A DNA stretch of 11,491 bases from Thermoplasmatota archaeon (GTDB lineage: Archaea > Thermoplasmatota > Thermoplasmata > RBG-16-68-12 > JAGMCJ01): the NCBI GenBank assembly GCA_022848825.1, contig JAJISH010000411.1, positions 1-11,491 of the forward strand. Reading direction: 5' to 3'. Each line of letters starts with the position of its first letter. Position 1 is the stretch's first letter. The notes beneath the pieces were generated by a model, which searched no databases, was not told the DNA's origin, and was given only the letters and a program-made list of their open reading frames with translations. Of the stretch, positions 1,848 through 11,491 are shown piece by piece. A program made the translations under genes and the position numbers.

Positions 1848-4800
1848 ATGGCCAAGAGAACATACGCGGATCTGGTCTTCAACGCTCGCCTCGAGGATAT
1901 CGACAAGGAGGTCGCTGACCTCATAGGCTTCGAGGAGGAGAGGCAGGATAGGAAGCTCATAATGATCGCATCCGAGAGCTATTGTCCCAGCCCGGTGAGG
2001 GAGGCGGTCGCGTCCGCCTTCGCGAACCTCTACGCCGAGGGGCATCCATCGGTCAGGATGGACAAGGAGGCCAGGGGGCTGGCAACGGACTACGAGCACC
2101 AGATGACGCACCAGCGCAGGTTCGCGGACAGGAGGTACTACAAGGGCTGTGAGTACGTCAACGTCATGGAGAACCTGGCGGAGAAGAGACTGGCGGAGAT
2201 CTTCGCGACGGACGAGATATCCGCGGACGAGATCTTCACGAACGTCCAGCCGCTCTCGGGCGCTATCGCCAATAACGCCGTCTACAGCGCCTTCCTCGAG
2301 CCCGGTGACACGGTCATGGGGATGGCGCTCAACGCGGGCGGGCATCTCACGCACGGGAGCGAGGTGAACCGCTCAGGGCGGTACTACAACATAATCCCGT
2401 ACTACCCGGACGACAGGACTGGCAAGTTCGATTTCAAGGAGCTGAAGAGGCTCGCCAAGGAGCACAGACCGAAACTTGTCATCGCGGGGTACAGCGCCTA
2501 CCCGTGGAATATCAACTGGAAGAAGTTCAGGGAGGTCGCCGACGCGGCTGGCGGGGCGATTCTCCTCGCGGACATGGCGCACGTCGCAGGCCTCATCGTT
2601 GGCGGGCAGTTCAACAACCCCATCGGATACGCGGACGTGGTCATGTTCACGACCCAGAAGTCGATCTGCGGTCCCCGCGGGGCGGTCCTCATGACGACGG
2701 ACAAGGAGAAGGCGAAGGCGCTGGACCGGGCCGTCTTCCCGGGCGAGCAGAGCGGGCCGCACCTGAACAACGTCATCGCGAAGGCCGTGTGCTTCGAGAT
2801 AGCCAAGACGCCCGAGTTCAGGGAGCTGACGAGGAGGATCGTGGAGAACGCGAAGCATCTGGTGAGCTCGTTCAAGAAGCTCGGTCTTACCGTCGCCTAT
2901 GGCGGGACGGACAGCCACCTGCTTCTGATCGACCTGAGGGACGTCAAGACGAAGACCGGCTACCCGCTCACGGGCGAGATAGTCGCCCGCATCATGGAGC
3001 TCTGTGGAATCGTCATCAACAAGAACACGATCCCGTACGATGAGAACGCCATACACCCGAGCGCGATACGCTTCGGCACGACTTGGGTCACCCAGCGGGG
3101 GTTCGGAAAGAGTCAAATGGAGAAGATCGCCGCCTTGTCTCACAGGATACTGACGAACATCCAGCCCTTCCACTACGTCGGACGGGAGAAGGACGTAGGC
3201 AGGGGGAAGATCGAGCTCAGGATACTCGAAGAGGTCAGGCGGGAGGTCGACGAGCTTGTCCGGGAGGCGAGGAGCGAGGTGCCCGCGCCGAGGCATGGAT
3301 ATCCGCACTATGGCACCGGCGAAGGTGAGGACCTCGAGAGTCCTCTTGAGGAGATTCACAAGGAGTCCCGCGCCAAGATGAGGAGGGTCGGCGGGTGGAG
3401 GATTCCTGCCGTCTATCACACGCTGAAGAAGGACATCGAGAAGACCAAGGACTCCGCGGGAGTCTTGGACGCGTCTGCCTACGGCCTCCTAGAGGTTCGC
3501 GGCTGGCGGGCGAGGCCATTCCTCGACGAGGTCTGCACAGGTCCCATTCGCGACATGGAAGTGGGAATGAGCCAGAGGACTCTCGTCCTGGACAAGGACG
3601 GCAGGATAATCGACGACGTGGTCGTGATGAGAGGGCCGCCTGACAGGGTCGGAAGGGACCGCTACATCGTCGTGACCAATCCCCAGAACGCAGACAGGAT
3701 CAAGCTCTGGTTCCGAGCGCTGTCCGATTCCTACGTGATTTTCGATGACGACCTCTTCAGAAAGGTTCAAGGACCCGTCATAGTCGGAGACCTCAGGCGG
3801 GAGGGCAAGACGAGCATCTTGCTCCACGGTCACAGCAGCCTGAGGGTTCTGAGGAAACTGGCTCCAGAGCTCAAGAAGTGGGACGGCAAGGGTCTCGTGA
3901 AGGTTTCGATGGGCAAGAACCGGGTCGTGATCGGATGGGCCGGGTTCCACGAGAAGTGTGAGAGGTTCCACATCATCGTTGACAGGAAGAAGAGCGTGCA
4001 CGTCTGGAAAGCGATTCTGGACGCGGGCAAGAGAATGGGGATCGGCCCGATCGGATATGACGCAGAACTGGATACGCGGAAGAGGCGCTACCTCCCGATC
4101 TACGGCAAGAGGAAGACACACGGGAGTGAGATAGTGCGCAGGCGGAAGGATTTCATGGACATCTCGAAACCCTATTTCGTGGGTCAAAGAGATTTCCTGC
4201 GGAAGAGGTCCCGCAAGAAGATGTACATGTACGAGCCAGAGGACATTCCGCCGAGGAGGAGCTGCCTGTACGAAGAGCACCTCAAGCTGGCCAAAAGGAC
4301 ATCCATGAAGCCCTTCGCGGGATGGGAGATGCCCATCCTCTACACGAGCATCGCCGACGAGCACAGGGCGGTCCGCGAGACCGCTGGGCTCTTCGATGTG
4401 AGCCACATGGGCGTCATCAGCGTTCAGGGGAGAGACGCCACCGACTTCCTGGATGCCGTAACGACGAACTACGTCAGATGGCTCAAGCCCTGCGAATCAC
4501 ACTATTCCTACGTGCTGGACATTGGCGGGCATGTCCTGGATGACATCTTCATCTACAAGATCGACGAGGAGGACTACATGATCGTCGCCAACGCCGTCAA
4601 CGCAGAGAAGGTATTTGCCTGGCTTCAGGCCGTCAGCACCGGTGAGTACCTCCTCAGCAGGGAACACCCGTCCGTGGACGTCAGCGGAGACGTGAGCGTG
4701 AGGGACCTCAAGGACCCCTCGAGCGGGAGGGACCGGCGGGTGGATATCGCGCTCCAAGGACCCAGTTCCCGCGAGACAATCATGGAGCTGATCAAGGACG

Positions 4801-5495
4801 AAAGGCTGAGGCGGAGGTTCTGGTCGCTGGCAAGGTTCGAGCTCATGAAGCTGAGGCTGGGCAACGTTCCGTTGATAATCTCCCGCTCGGGATATACCGG
4901 CGAGGAGTATGGTTACGAGCTCTTCGTGCACCCGAAGAATGCTCCGAAGCTGTGGAATCAGATCCTGGAAAAGGGAAAGCCCTACGGCGTGAAGCCAGCG
5001 GGCCTGGGAGCGAGGGACTCCACCCGGACAGAGGCGGGATTCCCGCTGTGGGGGAACGAGCTCGCGGGCGAGCACGATCTCTTCCCGACAGAGGCGGGAT
5101 ATGGGACCTTCGTCAAGCTGCACAAGTCCTTTTTCGTCGGTAGGCAGAGAGCGGTCGAGAAGGCCAGGAACCGCGAGAGAGAGATCATCCGCTACCGGAT
5201 GAACAAGAAGGGAATTCGCGTTGTCAGGCCCGGTGCCTTTGTCGTGAGCGGTCAGGACAGGATCATCGGGGAGGTGACGAGCAGCGTCGTCATCGAGGGA
5301 AGGCAGCTTGGCTTGGCTCTGGTGCCGAGAGAGCATGCGCTCGAGGACGCAGAGATTGGAATGGTCATCCCGCCAAGGGGAGTGAAAGCCTCAGGGAAGG
5401 AGATGCAGAGACTCGTGGACTCAGGCTCCGCGACGGTCGAAAGGGCGAGGACACTCCCCAGACTGCTGATCGCGGAAGAGGGTCAAGAAGAGTAG
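1848..5495 (+). CDS. Fusion of serine hydroxymethyltransferase with two GcvT (aminomethyltransferase) folds
   Basis: A 1215-residue three-part protein. Residues 1-445 are a PLP-dependent SHMT (serine + tetrahydrofolate to glycine + methylene-tetrahydrofolate). Lys271 in TTQKSICGPRG is the PLP lysine. Asp242 and His245 (DMAHVAG), His166 (GGHLTHG), Glu64 and Arg408 (IRFGT) also match catalytic positions, so it looks active. A roughly 26-residue insert lies at about 68-95, before Tyr97-Tyr98. A charged helical linker covers about 445-497. Residues about 500-800 form a GcvT-like fold that keeps IIDD (589-590) but has DASAYG instead of DVSHMG and lacks the GARDxxRxEAG motif. Residues 806-1205 form a full GcvT: FAGWEMP, DVSHMG, VLDD (Asp898-899), GARDSTRTEAG, PTEAGYG and a C-terminal barrel. 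A stand-alone GcvT is about 370 residues and an SHMT about 420. The frame is uninterrupted, so this is one chain. The start is ATG with GGAG 10 bases upstream. Confidence 0.9.
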   Translation: MAKRTYADLVFNARLEDIDKEVADLIGFEEERQDRKLIMIASESYCPSPVREAVASAFANLYAEGHPSVRMDKEARGLATDYEHQMTHQRRFADRRYYKGCEYVNVMENLAEKRLAEIFATDEISADEIFTNVQPLSGAIANNAVYSAFLEPGDTVMGMALNAGGHLTHGSEVNRSGRYYNIIPYYPDDRTGKFDFKELKRLAKEHRPKLVIAGYSAYPWNINWKKFREVADAAGGAILLADMAHVAGLIVGGQFNNPIGYADVVMFTTQKSICGPRGAVLMTTDKEKAKALDRAVFPGEQSGPHLNNVIAKAVCFEIAKTPEFRELTRRIVENAKHLVSSFKKLGLTVAYGGTDSHLLLIDLRDVKTKTGYPLTGEIVARIMELCGIVINKNTIPYDENAIHPSAIRFGTTWVTQRGFGKSQMEKIAALSHRILTNIQPFHYVGREKDVGRGKIELRILEEVRREVDELVREARSEVPAPRHGYPHYGTGEGEDLESPLEEIHKESRAKMRRVGGWRIPAVYHTLKKDIEKTKDSAGVLDASAYGLLEVRGWRARPFLDEVCTGPIRDMEVGMSQRTLVLDKDGRIIDDVVVMRGPPDRVGRDRYIVVTNPQNADRIKLWFRALSDSYVIFDDDLFRKVQGPVIVGDLRREGKTSILLHGHSSLRVLRKLAPELKKWDGKGLVKVSMGKNRVVIGWAGFHEKCERFHIIVDRKKSVHVWKAILDAGKRMGIGPIGYDAELDTRKRRYLPIYGKRKTHGSEIVRRRKDFMDISKPYFVGQRDFLRKRSRKKMYMYEPEDIPPRRSCLYEEHLKLAKRTSMKPFAGWEMPILYTSIADEHRAVRETAGLFDVSHMGVISVQGRDATDFLDAVTTNYVRWLKPCESHYSYVLDIGGHVLDDIFIYKIDEEDYMIVANAVNAEKVFAWLQAVSTGEYLLSREHPSVDVSGDVSVRDLKDPSSGRDRRVDIALQGPSSRETIMELIKDERLRRRFWSLARFELMKLRLGNVPLIISRSGYTGEEYGYELFVHPKNAPKLWNQILEKGKPYGVKPAGLGARDSTRTEAGFPLWGNELAGEHDLFPTEAGYGTFVKLHKSFFVGRQRAVEKARNREREIIRYRMNKKGIRVVRPGAFVVSGQDRIIGEVTSSVVIEGRQLGLALVPREHALEDAEIGMVIPPRGVKASGKEMQRLVDSGSATVERARTLPRLLIAEEGQEE

Positions 5496-5496
5496 C

Positions 5497-6054
5497 TCAC
5501 TCCGAGTGCAGCTCGTTCATGTTGCGGAAGCAACCCGCTGAGATGAGCCCCTGCTCGATCCATTCGTCAATGATGGGGAACGACGTCTTCTCCACTCGGC
5601 CAAAAAGCTCGGATATCTTGAGCGTCCCGCTCGCCAGCATCTCTTCGACCAGTGGCATCTGGCTTTTCGAATACAACGAGCAAAGCGGTTCCAAGTGCCC
5701 GTTCCTCCATCTCGGAACGACGAGCTCATTCTCACCATGATCGAGCAGAAGATCCAGTATCCGCGGGTCGAGGTCTGGCATGTCGCACGCGAGGACAAAG
5801 ACCCGCTCGTATCTCGCGTTCTTCAGGGCGGAGTAGATCCCGCCCAACGGACCCTTCTCGCTCACTAGATCCCCTCTGATGTCCGCATCAGTGCCCGAGA
5901 ACTCGCCCTGAAGGAAGACATCGTCCGAGAGCCTTTGGAACTTCTCGTAGCATATGTCGAAGAGTGGCTTTCCATCAACTTCGAAGAGCTGTTTGGCCCG
6001 CCCGAAACGGGAGGAGTTCCCGCCAGTGAGAATCGCTACCGAGACATCCGTCAG
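5497..6054 (-). CDS. mobA: Molybdenum cofactor guanylyltransferase, probable CTG start
   Basis: About 185 residues of a MobA-type nucleotidyltransferase, which joins GMP from GTP to molybdopterin to make the dinucleotide cofactor of formate dehydrogenase-type enzymes. Counting from CTG as residue 1, LTGGNSSRFGRAK (9-21) is the GTP-binding loop with its conserved Lys21. GPLGG lies at 68-72, the metal-binding CDMP at 90-93, and GHLEPLCSLY further on. Length fits the family. The usual Asp before the loop Lys is Ala here. No ATG, GTG or TTG exists in frame before the GTP loop. The first such codon is the GTG at 5863-5865, which would delete the active site. The CTG at 6052-6054 gives the natural-looking start TDVSVAILTGG, and GGGTG lies five bases upstream. 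It follows fdhD by four bases in one operon and converges on the SHMT fusion with a 1-bp gap. Confidence 0.85.
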   Translation of the reverse strand: MTDVSVAILTGGNSSRFGRAKQLFEVDGKPLFDICYEKFQRLSDDVFLQGEFSGTDADIRGDLVSEKGPLGGIYSALKNARYERVFVLACDMPDLDPRILDLLLDHGENELVVPRWRNGHLEPLCSLYSKSQMPLVEEMLASGTLKISELFGRVEKTSFPIIDEWIEQGLISAGCFRNMNELHSE

Positions 6055-7676: not shown

Positions 7677-10600
7677 TCAGTGGCGGCGAAAAACAGTGCC
7701 CATTGGAGCGATTAGCGAAACAAGCGCGAGTGCTAGCAGGCTGAGAATATCGATTTGCTGAGCGGCCTGAAGTCCAGCGACTTGAGCGGGATCCGGCTCC
7801 GAGGTTGATGCGCCCTGATTCTCTGGCGGGAGGGATTTGGTGCCCTCATTGCCCGCCGAATCCTTCGGGTCCTCCGGGTTCTCCGCTCGATTAGTCACGG
7901 TCCATGTTCCCGACGCAGAGGCCTCGATCCAGTAGCCATTGCCCGCCGTCATCGTCTCGATGTCGTTCGCGACCCTGAGGAAGTAAGGTGGGGAGAATGC
8001 GTTGAAGATCTCCACTCTAATCGCCCCTGAATCAGACTTCAGGTCTGCGATCGTGTAGTCTGTGTCGAATGACGGAAAGCCAACAAGGTTCCATCCCTTC
8101 GCAAGGTTCACGAGGGTAGTGGTAGGAACCCTTCCTGCCACGGTCAGATTGGAGCGGCTCACGACCTCGACCCAGATGCCCATGTTCGTGCCGATCTGTT
8201 CCAGCGTGCAGTAGTTCTTCTGCGTGGAGTAGCTCTTCCAGCTTCCTGCGTAGTAGTAGCGCGCGGTGTCGAAACTCAGCGTCCTCAATACGGCATCAAC
8301 GGAATCGTCCTTCTGCTCCAGCGGGATGGAGACCAGCTTCCAGCCTGGCATTAGGTTCTTGACGTACTTCCCCGCCTGTGCCGAGTACGGCGCCGAGTTG
8401 TTCGCGAAGTCGACCGCTCTTACCTGGTAGAAGTAGAAGCTGGAGTCGCCTTCGCCCCCGTTCGCATGAACGAAGAAGTCCGTGTCCGCCGGTGTTGAGC
8501 CGAGAAGCACGTAGCTAGTCCCTGTAGAATCATATGTCGTTCCATAGTACACGTCGTACCGCTCGACACCAGATTCGAGGTCCGTGGCGAACGTCCAAGT
8601 GATGTTGACATCCCGCCATCCGACACCTTCAAGGACTGCCCATGCGTCGTCCAGTGTTGTAGGCGGGCTCGCATCAATGTAGAACGGTCCCACATGATAG
8701 GCGTCGGGAGCCCAGTTGCCCGCCACATCCCTTGTCCTCACGTGGAAGTGCCAATCGCTGCCTGTGCCGAGGGGTGGGCTCGTCGTGCTGGGGCTCGTCG
8801 AGTCCAGGCTCGTGTCTGGGAGCGTCGCAGGCGACTGTGTCCAATCGAACGAGTAGCCATAGACGCCGCTCGTCGCGTCCCACGCACCGGTCCAGGTGAA
8901 GTCTATGGCATCGTCACTTGACCAAGTCCCCACACCATGACTCGATGTGAAGCCATCGGGATTGTGTGGGTCAGTGGCGTCCTTGCTGAAGGTGCCAGTC
9001 CTCGTCATCTCGAAGTTGCCGACGTTGTCCACAGAGTAGTAATCCACTGTATAGTTACCATCACTCACGACATCCGGCGGAGAGAAGTACACCGTCCATG
9101 GTGCACCGTTGATCCTGTAAGTCGTCACGTCCACGCCGCTGTGATTGTCTGAGGGTGTTAGAGCGATGCTGACATCGGACAAGAACCAACCGAAGTCACC
9201 GACTGTTCCAGTGAATGCATGAGTGGTCCAAGGATCCTCAACGTCGATGTAGAACGGTCCCACGTGATAGGCGTCGGGAGCCCAGTTCCCGGCGTTGTCC
9301 ACCGTCCTGATGTGGAAATGCCAGTTGTCGCCCGGACCCAGTGGGAAGCTCGTTGTGTTGGTCAGGACCGATGTTATCACGCTCATGGGGAGAGTGTCGG
9401 AAAACCTCGACCACGTGTAAGAGTACCCGTAGACGCCGCTCAAAGGATCGGAAGCCCCGGACCATTCGATGAATATCCTGTCATCGCCGGACCATACGAA
9501 TTTCTGATGACTGGAGCTGTAGCTGTCCGGATTGTCTGGCGGGGCGGTATCAATGTAGAATGGTCCCACGTGGTAGGCGCCCACCGCCCAGTTGCCAGCT
9601 TTGTCCATGGTTCTTATGTGGACATACCAGCTGTTGCCATCGAGCAGGGCGTAGCTCGTTGACTCGAAGTCCGCAGTATCCATGGTCGGCCCGGGGACGG
9701 AAATCGGACTCATTGTCCATTCTACCGCGAACCCGCCGATTCCGCTGATATTGTCCCAGGCTCCTGACCACCTTATCCAGACAGTATCGTCATTTGACCA
9801 TCCCATCAGGCTGTGCGAACTGGTGTAGCTGTTGGGATTCATAGGCAATGAGTAGTCAACCGTCACTCTGGCGGAATCTTCGGTGAAGCTGGCTCCGAAG
9901 TACGCCCTCGCGTATATGGTGTGCCAACCCTCCAGCAAGGACGACGTGTCCCACTCGTAGTACCAGTCGGCGGTCCCGTTGGCGAGTATCCAGGAGCTGT
10001 CGTCAACCTTCACGTAGACCTGATCGATTGCGCCATGGCCGAGCAATATGACATCGTCCAAGTACGCACCTTCCCTTGTGCCGCTCGTATCGCTGTGGAA
10101 GTGGAATCCGATCTCGGTGGCGGTCGTCGGGATCGAGACGGACGAGCCCATCCATCCGTTGCTGTTTCCAGTATGCGGATCCACGTAATGCCATGTCCCG
10201 TCGTAGTATGTCACGTAGACGTAGTCAACGCCGTCCTCGGAGTCCAACCAGTAGTTGTACGCGATGGTGGCAGAGTCGTACCCGCTCAGGTCGACGTCTT
10301 GTTGCATGTAGGCGTCCATATCATTGTCGTAAAGCCGCCTCACATCGTTGGGGATTCCGCCAATGACCTCGACGTCATCGACCTGCATGTATTGGTCGTA
10401 AGTGCCGTGATAGAGGAACGCGAGATGGACGGAGGGGTCTCCTGCCGCCACGGAGAGGTCGATGTACTGGATCCCCTGCGTCGTGGACGTCCAAGTCCGA
10501 AGTCCAGTGAACGCAGGGTAGTTCGCGCTTGTCGAGTACAGCACGCTCGCGTACTCGTCCCCGTCACCATGCTGATAGTCCAAATAGAACGTGAGGTTGA

Positions 10601-11491
10601 GCGAGGACTGAGAGCTGGCATCGAAGCCCGTGCTCATCTGGAGCCATTCCGTGATGTCAGTGCCCGCTCCTGCGCCGGAGCTGTCGCACTCCGCGATGTA
10701 GTCGCTTCCCGATTCCAGCTTCATTTCCCACCGGTGCGAGTCCGGTCCGACGCTGAGGGTCGTCCAATCCAGCGGTATGGATCCGCCGTTGTCGAAATCC
10801 TCGGTCTGAACGGTCTCGAAGTATTCTCCGAATGCCGCGGACCACACGCTCGTCACACCATCGTAGTACGTGGTGTTCGTCAAGCCCCAGTAATCCTCAC
10901 CTCCAGAACTCGTGCTGTCGCCCACGACCCAGGTGCCGGGCCACGAGCCCTCGAAGTCCTCTCTGAGAACGACCGTCCACATCGGGTTCGTCGCCAGTCC
11001 AGAGATGTTCACGAGGCCGTTGATGTTGTCGCCATCAAGAGGGTTCAACATCCTCATGCCTGGATAAAAGGAGACAGTCACGGTCCCCGGCGTGTCCTCG
11101 GGCGTGTCAGGGGATTCGTCCGAAACACGCGTGTAGACGCCTGGACTGTAGCCGCCCTCGTAAAGCTCAATCTTGTAGGATGTTATCGTCGAGTAGTCTG
11201 TCCCCGCACCGACGCTGAGGAAGAAGAGGTTGTGCCCGTTCCTCCACTCGTTCTTGAAATCGGTGTAGTCCAGCGCCATGAATGCCGGGAAGTCGTGGTT
11301 CCCTCCCCTCCACCAGGGTGATCTGGTGGCGGCGGGGTCGTTGATCGGACCGATGCCGAGGGTCACGGGAGCGTTTCTGCCGCCCTGGGGGTCCATGTTC
11401 ACGACGCCGAGCAGGGACGGCTCGTAGCTGATCCTGTCGCGGAATCTGATGGCTACGTTTGGAAGCTCGTCCGCCGCCTCGTAGGTCTTCC
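7677..11491 (-). CDS. Large modular cell-surface protein with C-terminal membrane anchor, 5' end outside the window
   Basis: The frame is open from the window edge to the TGA at 7677-7679, about 1,270 residues. A GTG at 11400-11402 is an internal Val, not a start: the same frame continues upstream (EPSLLGVVNMDPQGG). Order from the N-terminal side: a beta-rich region of unknown type (to about 11050); a jelly-roll adhesin-like domain opening at VLREDFEGSWPG, apparently with a second such domain (EDFDNGGSIPLDW to VDDVEVIGG) inserted in it; a short Ig-like stretch; three related modules ending in HVGPFYID with a different Ig-like domain between the second and third; a fibronectin-like domain; paired GWKLVSIPL / GWNLVGFPS segments; a Pro/Glu/Ser-rich linker; and a final hydrophobic helix (ILSLLALALVSLIAPMGTVF) before RRH. 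It is Trp/Tyr/Asp-rich with few Cys, as in archaeal surface proteins. A missing N-terminal part could carry a signal peptide or an enzyme domain. Confidence 0.85.
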   Translation of the reverse strand, partial: KTYEAADELPNVAIRFRDRISYEPSLLGVVNMDPQGGRNAPVTLGIGPINDPAATRSPWWRGGNHDFPAFMALDYTDFKNEWRNGHNLFFLSVGAGTDYSTITSYKIELYEGGYSPGVYTRVSDESPDTPEDTPGTVTVSFYPGMRMLNPLDGDNINGLVNISGLATNPMWTVVLREDFEGSWPGTWVVGDSTSSGGEDYWGLTNTTYYDGVTSVWSAAFGEYFETVQTEDFDNGGSIPLDWTTLSVGPDSHRWEMKLESGSDYIAECDSSGAGAGTDITEWLQMSTGFDASSQSSLNLTFYLDYQHGDGDEYASVLYSTSANYPAFTGLRTWTSTTQGIQYIDLSVAAGDPSVHLAFLYHGTYDQYMQVDDVEVIGGIPNDVRRLYDNDMDAYMQQDVDLSGYDSATIAYNYWLDSEDGVDYVYVTYYDGTWHYVDPHTGNSNGWMGSSVSIPTTATEIGFHFHSDTSGTREGAYLDDVILLGHGAIDQVYVKVDDSSWILANGTADWYYEWDTSSLLEGWHTIYARAYFGASFTEDSARVTVDYSLPMNPNSYTSSHSLMGWSNDDTVWIRWSGAWDNISGIGGFAVEWTMSPISVPGPTMDTADFESTSYALLDGNSWYVHIRTMDKAGNWAVGAYHVGPFYIDTAPPDNPDSYSSSHQKFVWSGDDRIFIEWSGASDPLSGVYGYSYTWSRFSDTLPMSVITSVLTNTTSFPLGPGDNWHFHIRTVDNAGNWAPDAYHVGPFYIDVEDPWTTHAFTGTVGDFGWFLSDVSIALTPSDNHSGVDVTTYRINGAPWTVYFSPPDVVSDGNYTVDYYSVDNVGNFEMTRTGTFSKDATDPHNPDGFTSSHGVGTWSSDDAIDFTWTGAWDATSGVYGYSFDWTQSPATLPDTSLDSTSPSTTSPPLGTGSDWHFHVRTRDVAGNWAPDAYHVGPFYIDASPPTTLDDAWAVLEGVGWRDVNITWTFATDLESGVERYDVYYGTTYDSTGTSYVLLGSTPADTDFFVHANGGEGDSSFYFYQVRAVDFANNSAPYSAQAGKYVKNLMPGWKLVSIPLEQKDDSVDAVLRTLSFDTARYYYAGSWKSYSTQKNYCTLEQIGTNMGIWVEVVSRSNLTVAGRVPTTTLVNLAKGWNLVGFPSFDTDYTIADLKSDSGAIRVEIFNAFSPPYFLRVANDIETMTAGNGYWIEASASGTWTVTNRAENPEDPKDSAGNEGTKSLPPENQGASTSEPDPAQVAGLQAAQQIDILSLLALALVSLIAPMGTVFRRH
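8673..9843 (-). repeat. Three related ~295-bp module repeats within the surface protein gene
   Basis: Modules lie at about 9843-9550, 9537-9243 and 8967-8673, read on the minus strand. Each starts NPxS/GxxSSH, has a WSxDD...W(S/T)GA segment and ends in AGNWAxxAYHVGPFYID. The last 48 bases (9549-9596, 9243-9290, 8673-8720) are strongly conserved at DNA level; the second and third copies differ at only a few positions. A dissimilar Ig-like domain (about 9240-8970) separates them. This points to fairly recent duplication or gene conversion. Confidence 0.8.

Follow-up and report, generated by a model that had tools for sequence, protein, structure and literature searches.

Serine hydroxymethyltransferase (SHMT, GlyA) and the T-protein of the glycine cleavage system (the aminomethyltransferase GcvT) share methylene-tetrahydrofolate (methylene-THF), and whether this intermediate is handed over between the two enzymes or diffuses is an old question in one-carbon metabolism. 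A gene encoding both proteins in a single chain is present in a Thermoplasmatota archaeon (assembly GCA_022848825.1, contig JAJISH010000411.1; genome G000), within the 11,491-nucleotide stretch of DNA analysed here (the window). The product consists of an SHMT, a GcvT-like middle domain (GcvT1) and a GcvT (GcvT2), in that order. Probably (roughly three chances in four) it is a folate enzyme with two activities on which the cell relies for both canonical SHMT and GcvT function, no other copy of either being visible in the 89%-complete genome. Both activities are known; what appears to be new is the family of natural SHMT-GcvT fusions, of which no description was found in the open-access literature (most subscription papers and all bioRxiv preprints fall outside this scope). 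The accessible part of PMC12421819 describes no such fusion, and an initial reading of the DNA letters without database searches (the sequence-only reading) was right, within the open-access literature, that the three-part arrangement is not known as a characterised enzyme. The fusion forms a coherent, apparently undescribed family and is not a peculiarity of one genome.

Domain structure and active sites of the fusion

The frame contains no internal stop codon, and its parts map to the window as follows.

1848..5495, + strand, SHMT-GcvT1-GcvT2 fusion gene, 1215 codons
1848..3263, + strand, SHMT part, residues 1-472, complete fold
2049..2126, + strand, 26-residue insert in the SHMT active-site loop, residues 68-93, defined by the length of the YAEG-RYY spacer
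2658..2660, + strand, codon of the pyridoxal phosphate (PLP) lysine, K271 (E. coli K229), invariant in 119/119 chains
3339..4247, + strand, GcvT1, residues 498-800, GcvT fold with 6/10 active-site positions changed
3468..3797, + strand, portion of GcvT1 still recognisable in shortened and split members, residues ~541-650 (profile positions ~46-155)
4248..5438, + strand, GcvT2, residues 801-1197, complete aminomethyltransferase with intact active-site positions
4539..4544, + strand, codons of D898-D899, the conserved GcvT Asp pair, 100% in 119 family members
4623..4754, + strand, enlarged GcvT2 loop, residues 926-969, 44 residues versus 23-25 in the separate GcvTs compared

Pfam recognises SHMT (381.7 bits) and GCV_T (340.2 bits, summed over two stretches) in the product, and these matches together with the open frame bear out the initial description of a single unbroken chain. 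Among the 120 matches listed (of 2353, the window's own counted), 119 are full-length chains of 1137-1282 amino acids (aa) with both Pfam families, and the odd one is a 694-aa piece (P0018). Genus-mates carry the same chain on different contigs at 85-98% identity (the copy in G002 is broken by a contig end), including near kin of G000, recorded as Thermoplasmata archaea, with chain identities of 98% and 85%. Viral origin was considered and rejected, as patterns from the fusion protein gave no relative among viral contigs.

The SHMT part agrees with E. coli GlyA at 17 of 20 compared positions (A139, Q270 and S302 deviate), and the PLP lysine plus 14 more of these positions are invariant in all 119 chains. 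K271, E64, Y62, Y98, D242, H245, R277 and R408 are invariant throughout, and we take the conserved residues to have their usual catalytic roles. With its whole fold, PLP lysine and surrounding residues kept, this part looks catalytic, as the sequence-only reading had proposed. Two of the deviating residues, Q270 (window 2655-2657, E. coli H228) and S302 (window 2751-2753, E. coli G262), occur in the same 15 of the 119 chains, which are the nearest matches. Between the YAEG and RYY motifs, 25 of 26 fusions have a spacer of 30 residues and 19 of 22 other SHMTs one of 4 residues; one fusion (L100) and three other SHMTs (L150, L002 and L175) do not match the pattern. The insert is not a general trait of long SHMTs, since SHMTs of 511-532 aa (L168-L170) do not have it.

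The best solved relative of GcvT2 is the T. maritima GcvT (1woo, E 9.5e-59). The conserved T-protein residues that it retains presumably keep their roles, and this last domain looks catalytic as well. Between W124 and Q148 (E. coli numbering), each of the nine fused GcvT2s compared has 43-45 residues, versus 23-25 in E. coli GcvT and six separate GcvTs. Against two NCBI GcvT models the whole chain scores 288.3 and 363.3 bits, values that exceed the cut-offs and sum two stretches.

GcvT1 alone scores 85.3 bits against a GcvT model with a cut-off of 300. Its active site is altered here at Y85, Y189, E196, R224, D225 and E230 (E. coli numbering), and in the family H51, Y85, Y102, Y189, T190, G191 and D225 are altered in more than half of 119 members, making it doubtful that GcvT1 is a second working enzyme. 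The initial claim of two GcvT folds therefore holds for their presence and not for their equivalence, the second being complete and the first degenerate. A structure model spans residues 1-1200 of 1215, with pLDDT below 50 in places in the SHMT insert region; it carries no inter-domain error and does not fix how the domains face each other. The matches listed in fold searches are SHMT chains only, so the GcvT parts were barely probed there.

Replacement of separate SHMT and GcvT genes

Among 61 genomes (the source genome and 60 relatives), the fusion is present in 12 (G000-G006, G014, G016, G018, G050 and G060; in pieces in G002 and G018). A separate canonical SHMT, taken as a match of at least ~147 bits, occurs in 0/12 of these versus 46 of the 49 others (Fisher p 2.6e-10, uncorrected for kinship). 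No separate GcvT was found in the 12 fusion genomes, where all matches are the fusion, fusion pieces or a divergent SHMT paralogue (at most 130 bits as an SHMT). The source genome, checked for glyA and gcvT as the sequence-only reading had suggested, has neither a separate canonical SHMT nor a separate GcvT in its 89%-complete assembly. Many relatives, fusion-bearing or not, also carry the divergent paralogue (~430 aa; L002:698-1966, - strand, in the source genome).

A second set comprises 36 hand-picked Chloroflexota genomes, 25 of the ~62 with the fusion and 11 of the rest. At a line of ~140 bits, a separate SHMT is present in 1/25 fusion genomes versus 11/11 others, and a separate GcvT in 3/25 (G168, G216 and G272) versus 10/11. 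The fused GcvT2s of G168, G216 and G272 have lost seven of the ten active-site positions (D97, N114, Y189, R224, D225, R228 and E230), and the separate GcvTs of the same genomes retain the residues lost; these three cases may represent one event. Of the other 37 fused GcvT2s that were read, 36 keep all ten positions and the remaining one (G240) runs off its locus. The 40 domains read come from 24 of the 25 Chloroflexota fusion genomes (G061 twice; not G109; one copy each from G074 and G255, which carry a second) and 15 Thermoplasmatota. For six of these Thermoplasmatota (G400, G399, G370, G373, G394 and G437), at most two candidates each were scored in the search for a separate GcvT. Judged from gene content and conserved residues, the fusion takes the place of separate SHMT and GcvT, with two apparently complete active sites and a degenerate middle domain in one chain.

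Distribution and phylogeny

The search for SHMT plus two GcvT domains that the sequence-only reading had proposed reveals a family spread across Thermoplasmata, Chloroflexi and Aerophobetes names. The matches listed are named from Thermoplasmata, Methanomassiliicoccales, Anaerolineae, Chloroflexi, Aerophobetes and one "[Eubacterium] cellulosolvens", and their annotations, where given, are GcvT or SHMT alone. In a profile scan of fetched open reading frames (ORFs), full chains measure ~1120-1290 aa. Shorter Chloroflexota chains measure ~1040-1140 aa, with GcvT1 recognised only at profile positions ~46-155 (~110 positions). Split forms, consisting of an SHMT with half of GcvT1 (586-606 aa) and a GcvT (415-431 aa), occur in G325, G100 and G215; the halves lie on different contigs in G325 and G100 and side by side in G215 and G350, the SHMT of the latter being cut by a contig end. 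Fusion-type sequence is present in at least about 62 of 301 sampled Chloroflexota, a count read by eye with at most two candidates scored per genome, and, with a recognisable GcvT, in 7 of 292 sampled Thermoplasmatota among the matches listed, plus G372 with the SHMT only. The frame in G372 (L078, 838 aa) encodes a fusion-type SHMT followed by ~400 residues without a recognisable GcvT.

In a tree of SHMTs with the insert excised, the 30 fusion SHMTs group as a single clade (100/100), next to bacterial GlyA and far from the native Thermoplasmatota type. Within this clade the Thermoplasmatota fusions branch from among other fusions, some of them bacterial. A separate Thermoplasmatota SHMT (L140, G480) also falls on the bacterial side. 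Bacteria are the probable source of the fusion gene in Thermoplasmatota, where it would have supplanted the native archaeal enzymes; such a transfer is likely rather than proven, because some chains on the closest branches come from an unknown host.

A second fusion, with the domains in the reverse order, is present in two Thermoplasmatota genomes (G367 and G378).

L150:1011-3677, + strand, reverse-order GcvT-SHMT, 888 aa
L151:1165-3831, - strand, reverse-order GcvT-SHMT, 888 aa

Reverse-order chains of 873-911 aa number 120 among the matches listed (of 6567, all kinds), with names from Thermoplasmata, Dehalococcoidia, Chloroflexota and Thermodesulfobacteriota, among others. The two reverse-order SHMTs placed in a tree (the insert-free tree omits them) fall outside the fusion clade; their exact place is unsure because they sit on a very long branch.

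Pathway genes and predicted function

The source genome encodes GcvH (C37, with an ESVKA motif, which we take to be that of GcvH), GcvPA (C72) and formate-THF ligase, and fragments of FolD and of a lipoate-ligase-like protein lie at contig ends. Among these are matches for the gcvH, gcvP and lipoate genes that the sequence-only reading proposed to look for. Across the 12 Thermoplasmata fusion genomes, GcvP is present in 12, GcvH in 10 and FolD above the cut-off in 11, and formate-THF ligase in 12/12 (also in 38/49 of the others). This gene set suits THF as the cofactor.

The SHMT site would interconvert serine and glycine along with THF and methylene-THF. At the C-terminal GcvT site, that methylene-THF would be exchanged for the aminomethyl group carried by lipoylated GcvH, GcvP and GcvH being separate partner proteins; turnover with THF and partnership with these two proteins we infer from the families. 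Two glycines would jointly yield serine, CO2 and NH3, and the reversed reaction would feed the reductive glycine route. The link between serine synthesis and glycine cleavage through methylene-THF that had been suggested from the DNA alone is the best reading, consistent with the GcvH, GcvPA and folate genes, with the catalysis in it a prediction. GcvT1 is probably a duplicated T-protein that has given up the standard reaction and would now have a structural or docking role, perhaps shared with the SHMT insert and the enlarged loop of GcvT2. A tentative extension, which we consider rather more apt to be wrong than right, is that these three elements form a bridge that carries methylene-THF out of the PLP site and into the GcvT site, so that interconversion of serine, glycine, CO2 and ammonia would need no free methylene-THF, and that the same solution arose again as the reverse-order fusion. 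Channelling within the fusion is plausible but speculative.

An assembly or binning artefact could in principle produce such a chain. The source genome is a fragmentary bin of 453 contigs, and the fusion gene of G018 is split between two sites of an assembly that is a single contig; against this, the make-up is identical in 119 of the 120 matches listed and in genus-mates at 85-98% identity on separate contigs, which excludes the assembly join named at the outset as a possible refutation and leaves an artefact a negligible prospect. A stronger contender, credible at just under even odds, is that fusion serves expression convenience only, supplying two ordinary enzymes in equal dose without channelling while the middle domain drifts to decay. 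The GcvT1 domains form one fast-evolving group, shortened in many bacteria, and split forms exist both on different contigs (G325, G100) and side by side (G215, G350), as such drift would allow. However, the GcvT1 piece is still recognisable in the shortened and split forms, several GcvT1 residues are invariant in 75/75 full-length chains, and the SHMT insert and enlarged GcvT2 loop accompany the fusion. It is quite unlikely that GcvT2 is instead a folate-dependent demethylase of the dimethylglycine, sarcosine, trimethylamine N-oxide (TMAO) or dimethylsulfoniopropionate type, turning the methyl groups of small amines into serine. GcvT2 does match TMAO demethylase (146.8 bits) and sarcosine oxidase (136.4 bits) models, but its top scores come from GcvT models (283.2 and 217.2 bits), the 12 fusion-bearing relatives show no other GcvT yet encode GcvP in every case and GcvH in ten, and among the Chloroflexota read GcvT2 is decayed only alongside a separate GcvT.

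Several observations weigh against a bifunctional enzyme that alone supplies both activities. The position of E. coli H228 in SHMT is Gln in 15/119 chains, including this one, and GcvT2 alone scores 217.2 and 283.2 bits, slightly below the NCBI GcvT cut-offs of 235.85 and 300. GcvT1 keeps D97, D98, N114 and R228 of E. coli (D589, D590, N611 and R744), and in the family D97 is kept in 96, D98 in 93, N114 in 90, R224 in 104 and R228 in 103 of 119 members; with the Asp pair, N611 and R744 in place, some activity of GcvT1 is conceivable. Among the pathway genes of the source genome, GcvPA, FolD and lipoate ligase are cut by contig ends and no GcvPB above the cut-off was found in the fragmentary assembly, and GcvH was not found in G002 and G003 among the 12 fusion genomes. 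The fusion is linked to gcvH in 1/19 neighbourhoods and to gcvP in 0/19. G370 and G144 carry the fusion plus a separate SHMT, and matches below 140 bits occur in fusion genomes, SHMT-like in G082 (100.8 bits) and GcvT-like in G068 (94.8 bits) and G109 (84.8 bits), as well as in G073, G228, G061 and G086; further weak matches score 50-86 bits.

Gene neighbourhood

A conserved link to gcvH or gcvP was rejected on the neighbourhood counts above; in G400, gcvH begins 16 bases past the fusion. The fdhD-mobA pair, which the sequence-only reading took as a hint at formate metabolism, cannot share an operon with the fusion because it lies on the opposite strand and converges on it, and was rejected as an operon partner. 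The hint is weak, as fdhD is near the fusion in 4/19 neighbourhoods (G001, G004, G005 and G016), all close kin. The window's mobA (5497-6051, - strand) is open over 184 codons and starts with ACG, versus ATG in a genus-mate's 184-aa copy; because of the ACG start, it appears as only 122 aa in the ORF list. The product of window 7677-11402 (- strand), 1241 aa long, gives an Ig-like match, has a hydrophobic C-terminus and may be a surface protein. In two cases only (G050 and G060), the fusion is followed after 21-22 bases by a gene for an HdrA2-like protein that has an MvhD-type (FlpD) domain. The N-terminal SHMT piece of the divided fusion gene in G018 (L144, L145) lies far from the remainder on one contig, through rearrangement or an assembly fault.

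L098:12082-14445, + strand, HdrA2-like gene (the scanned copy)
L099:5854-8208, - strand, ORF of the same family

Significance and comparison with known enzymes

Direct test material for the question of whether methylene-THF is handed over comes from a natural fusion in place of the separate enzymes, from the existence of fusions in both domain orders and from three natural losses of one site. The fusion bears on annotation, since the names returned by the protein search cover one half of the fusion only, and it is relevant to engineered reductive glycine pathways.

The SHMT part resembles GlyA (PF00464) in fold, PLP lysine and most compared positions, and differs from it in the 26-residue insert, the C-terminal fusion and its placement in its own 100/100 clade among 48 sampled rows. 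GcvT2 retains the conserved active-site positions of GcvT (PF01571; 1woo of T. maritima), and departs from it in its longer loop, in being fused and in having a degenerate second copy ahead of it. A further counterpart is the reverse-order GcvT-SHMT (~890 aa; L150, P0122-P0241), for which the same two activities are expected in one chain and which is annotated, where named, as GcvT or aminomethyltransferase; it differs in having the opposite order, a single GcvT and, in the two rows placed, an SHMT of another branch.

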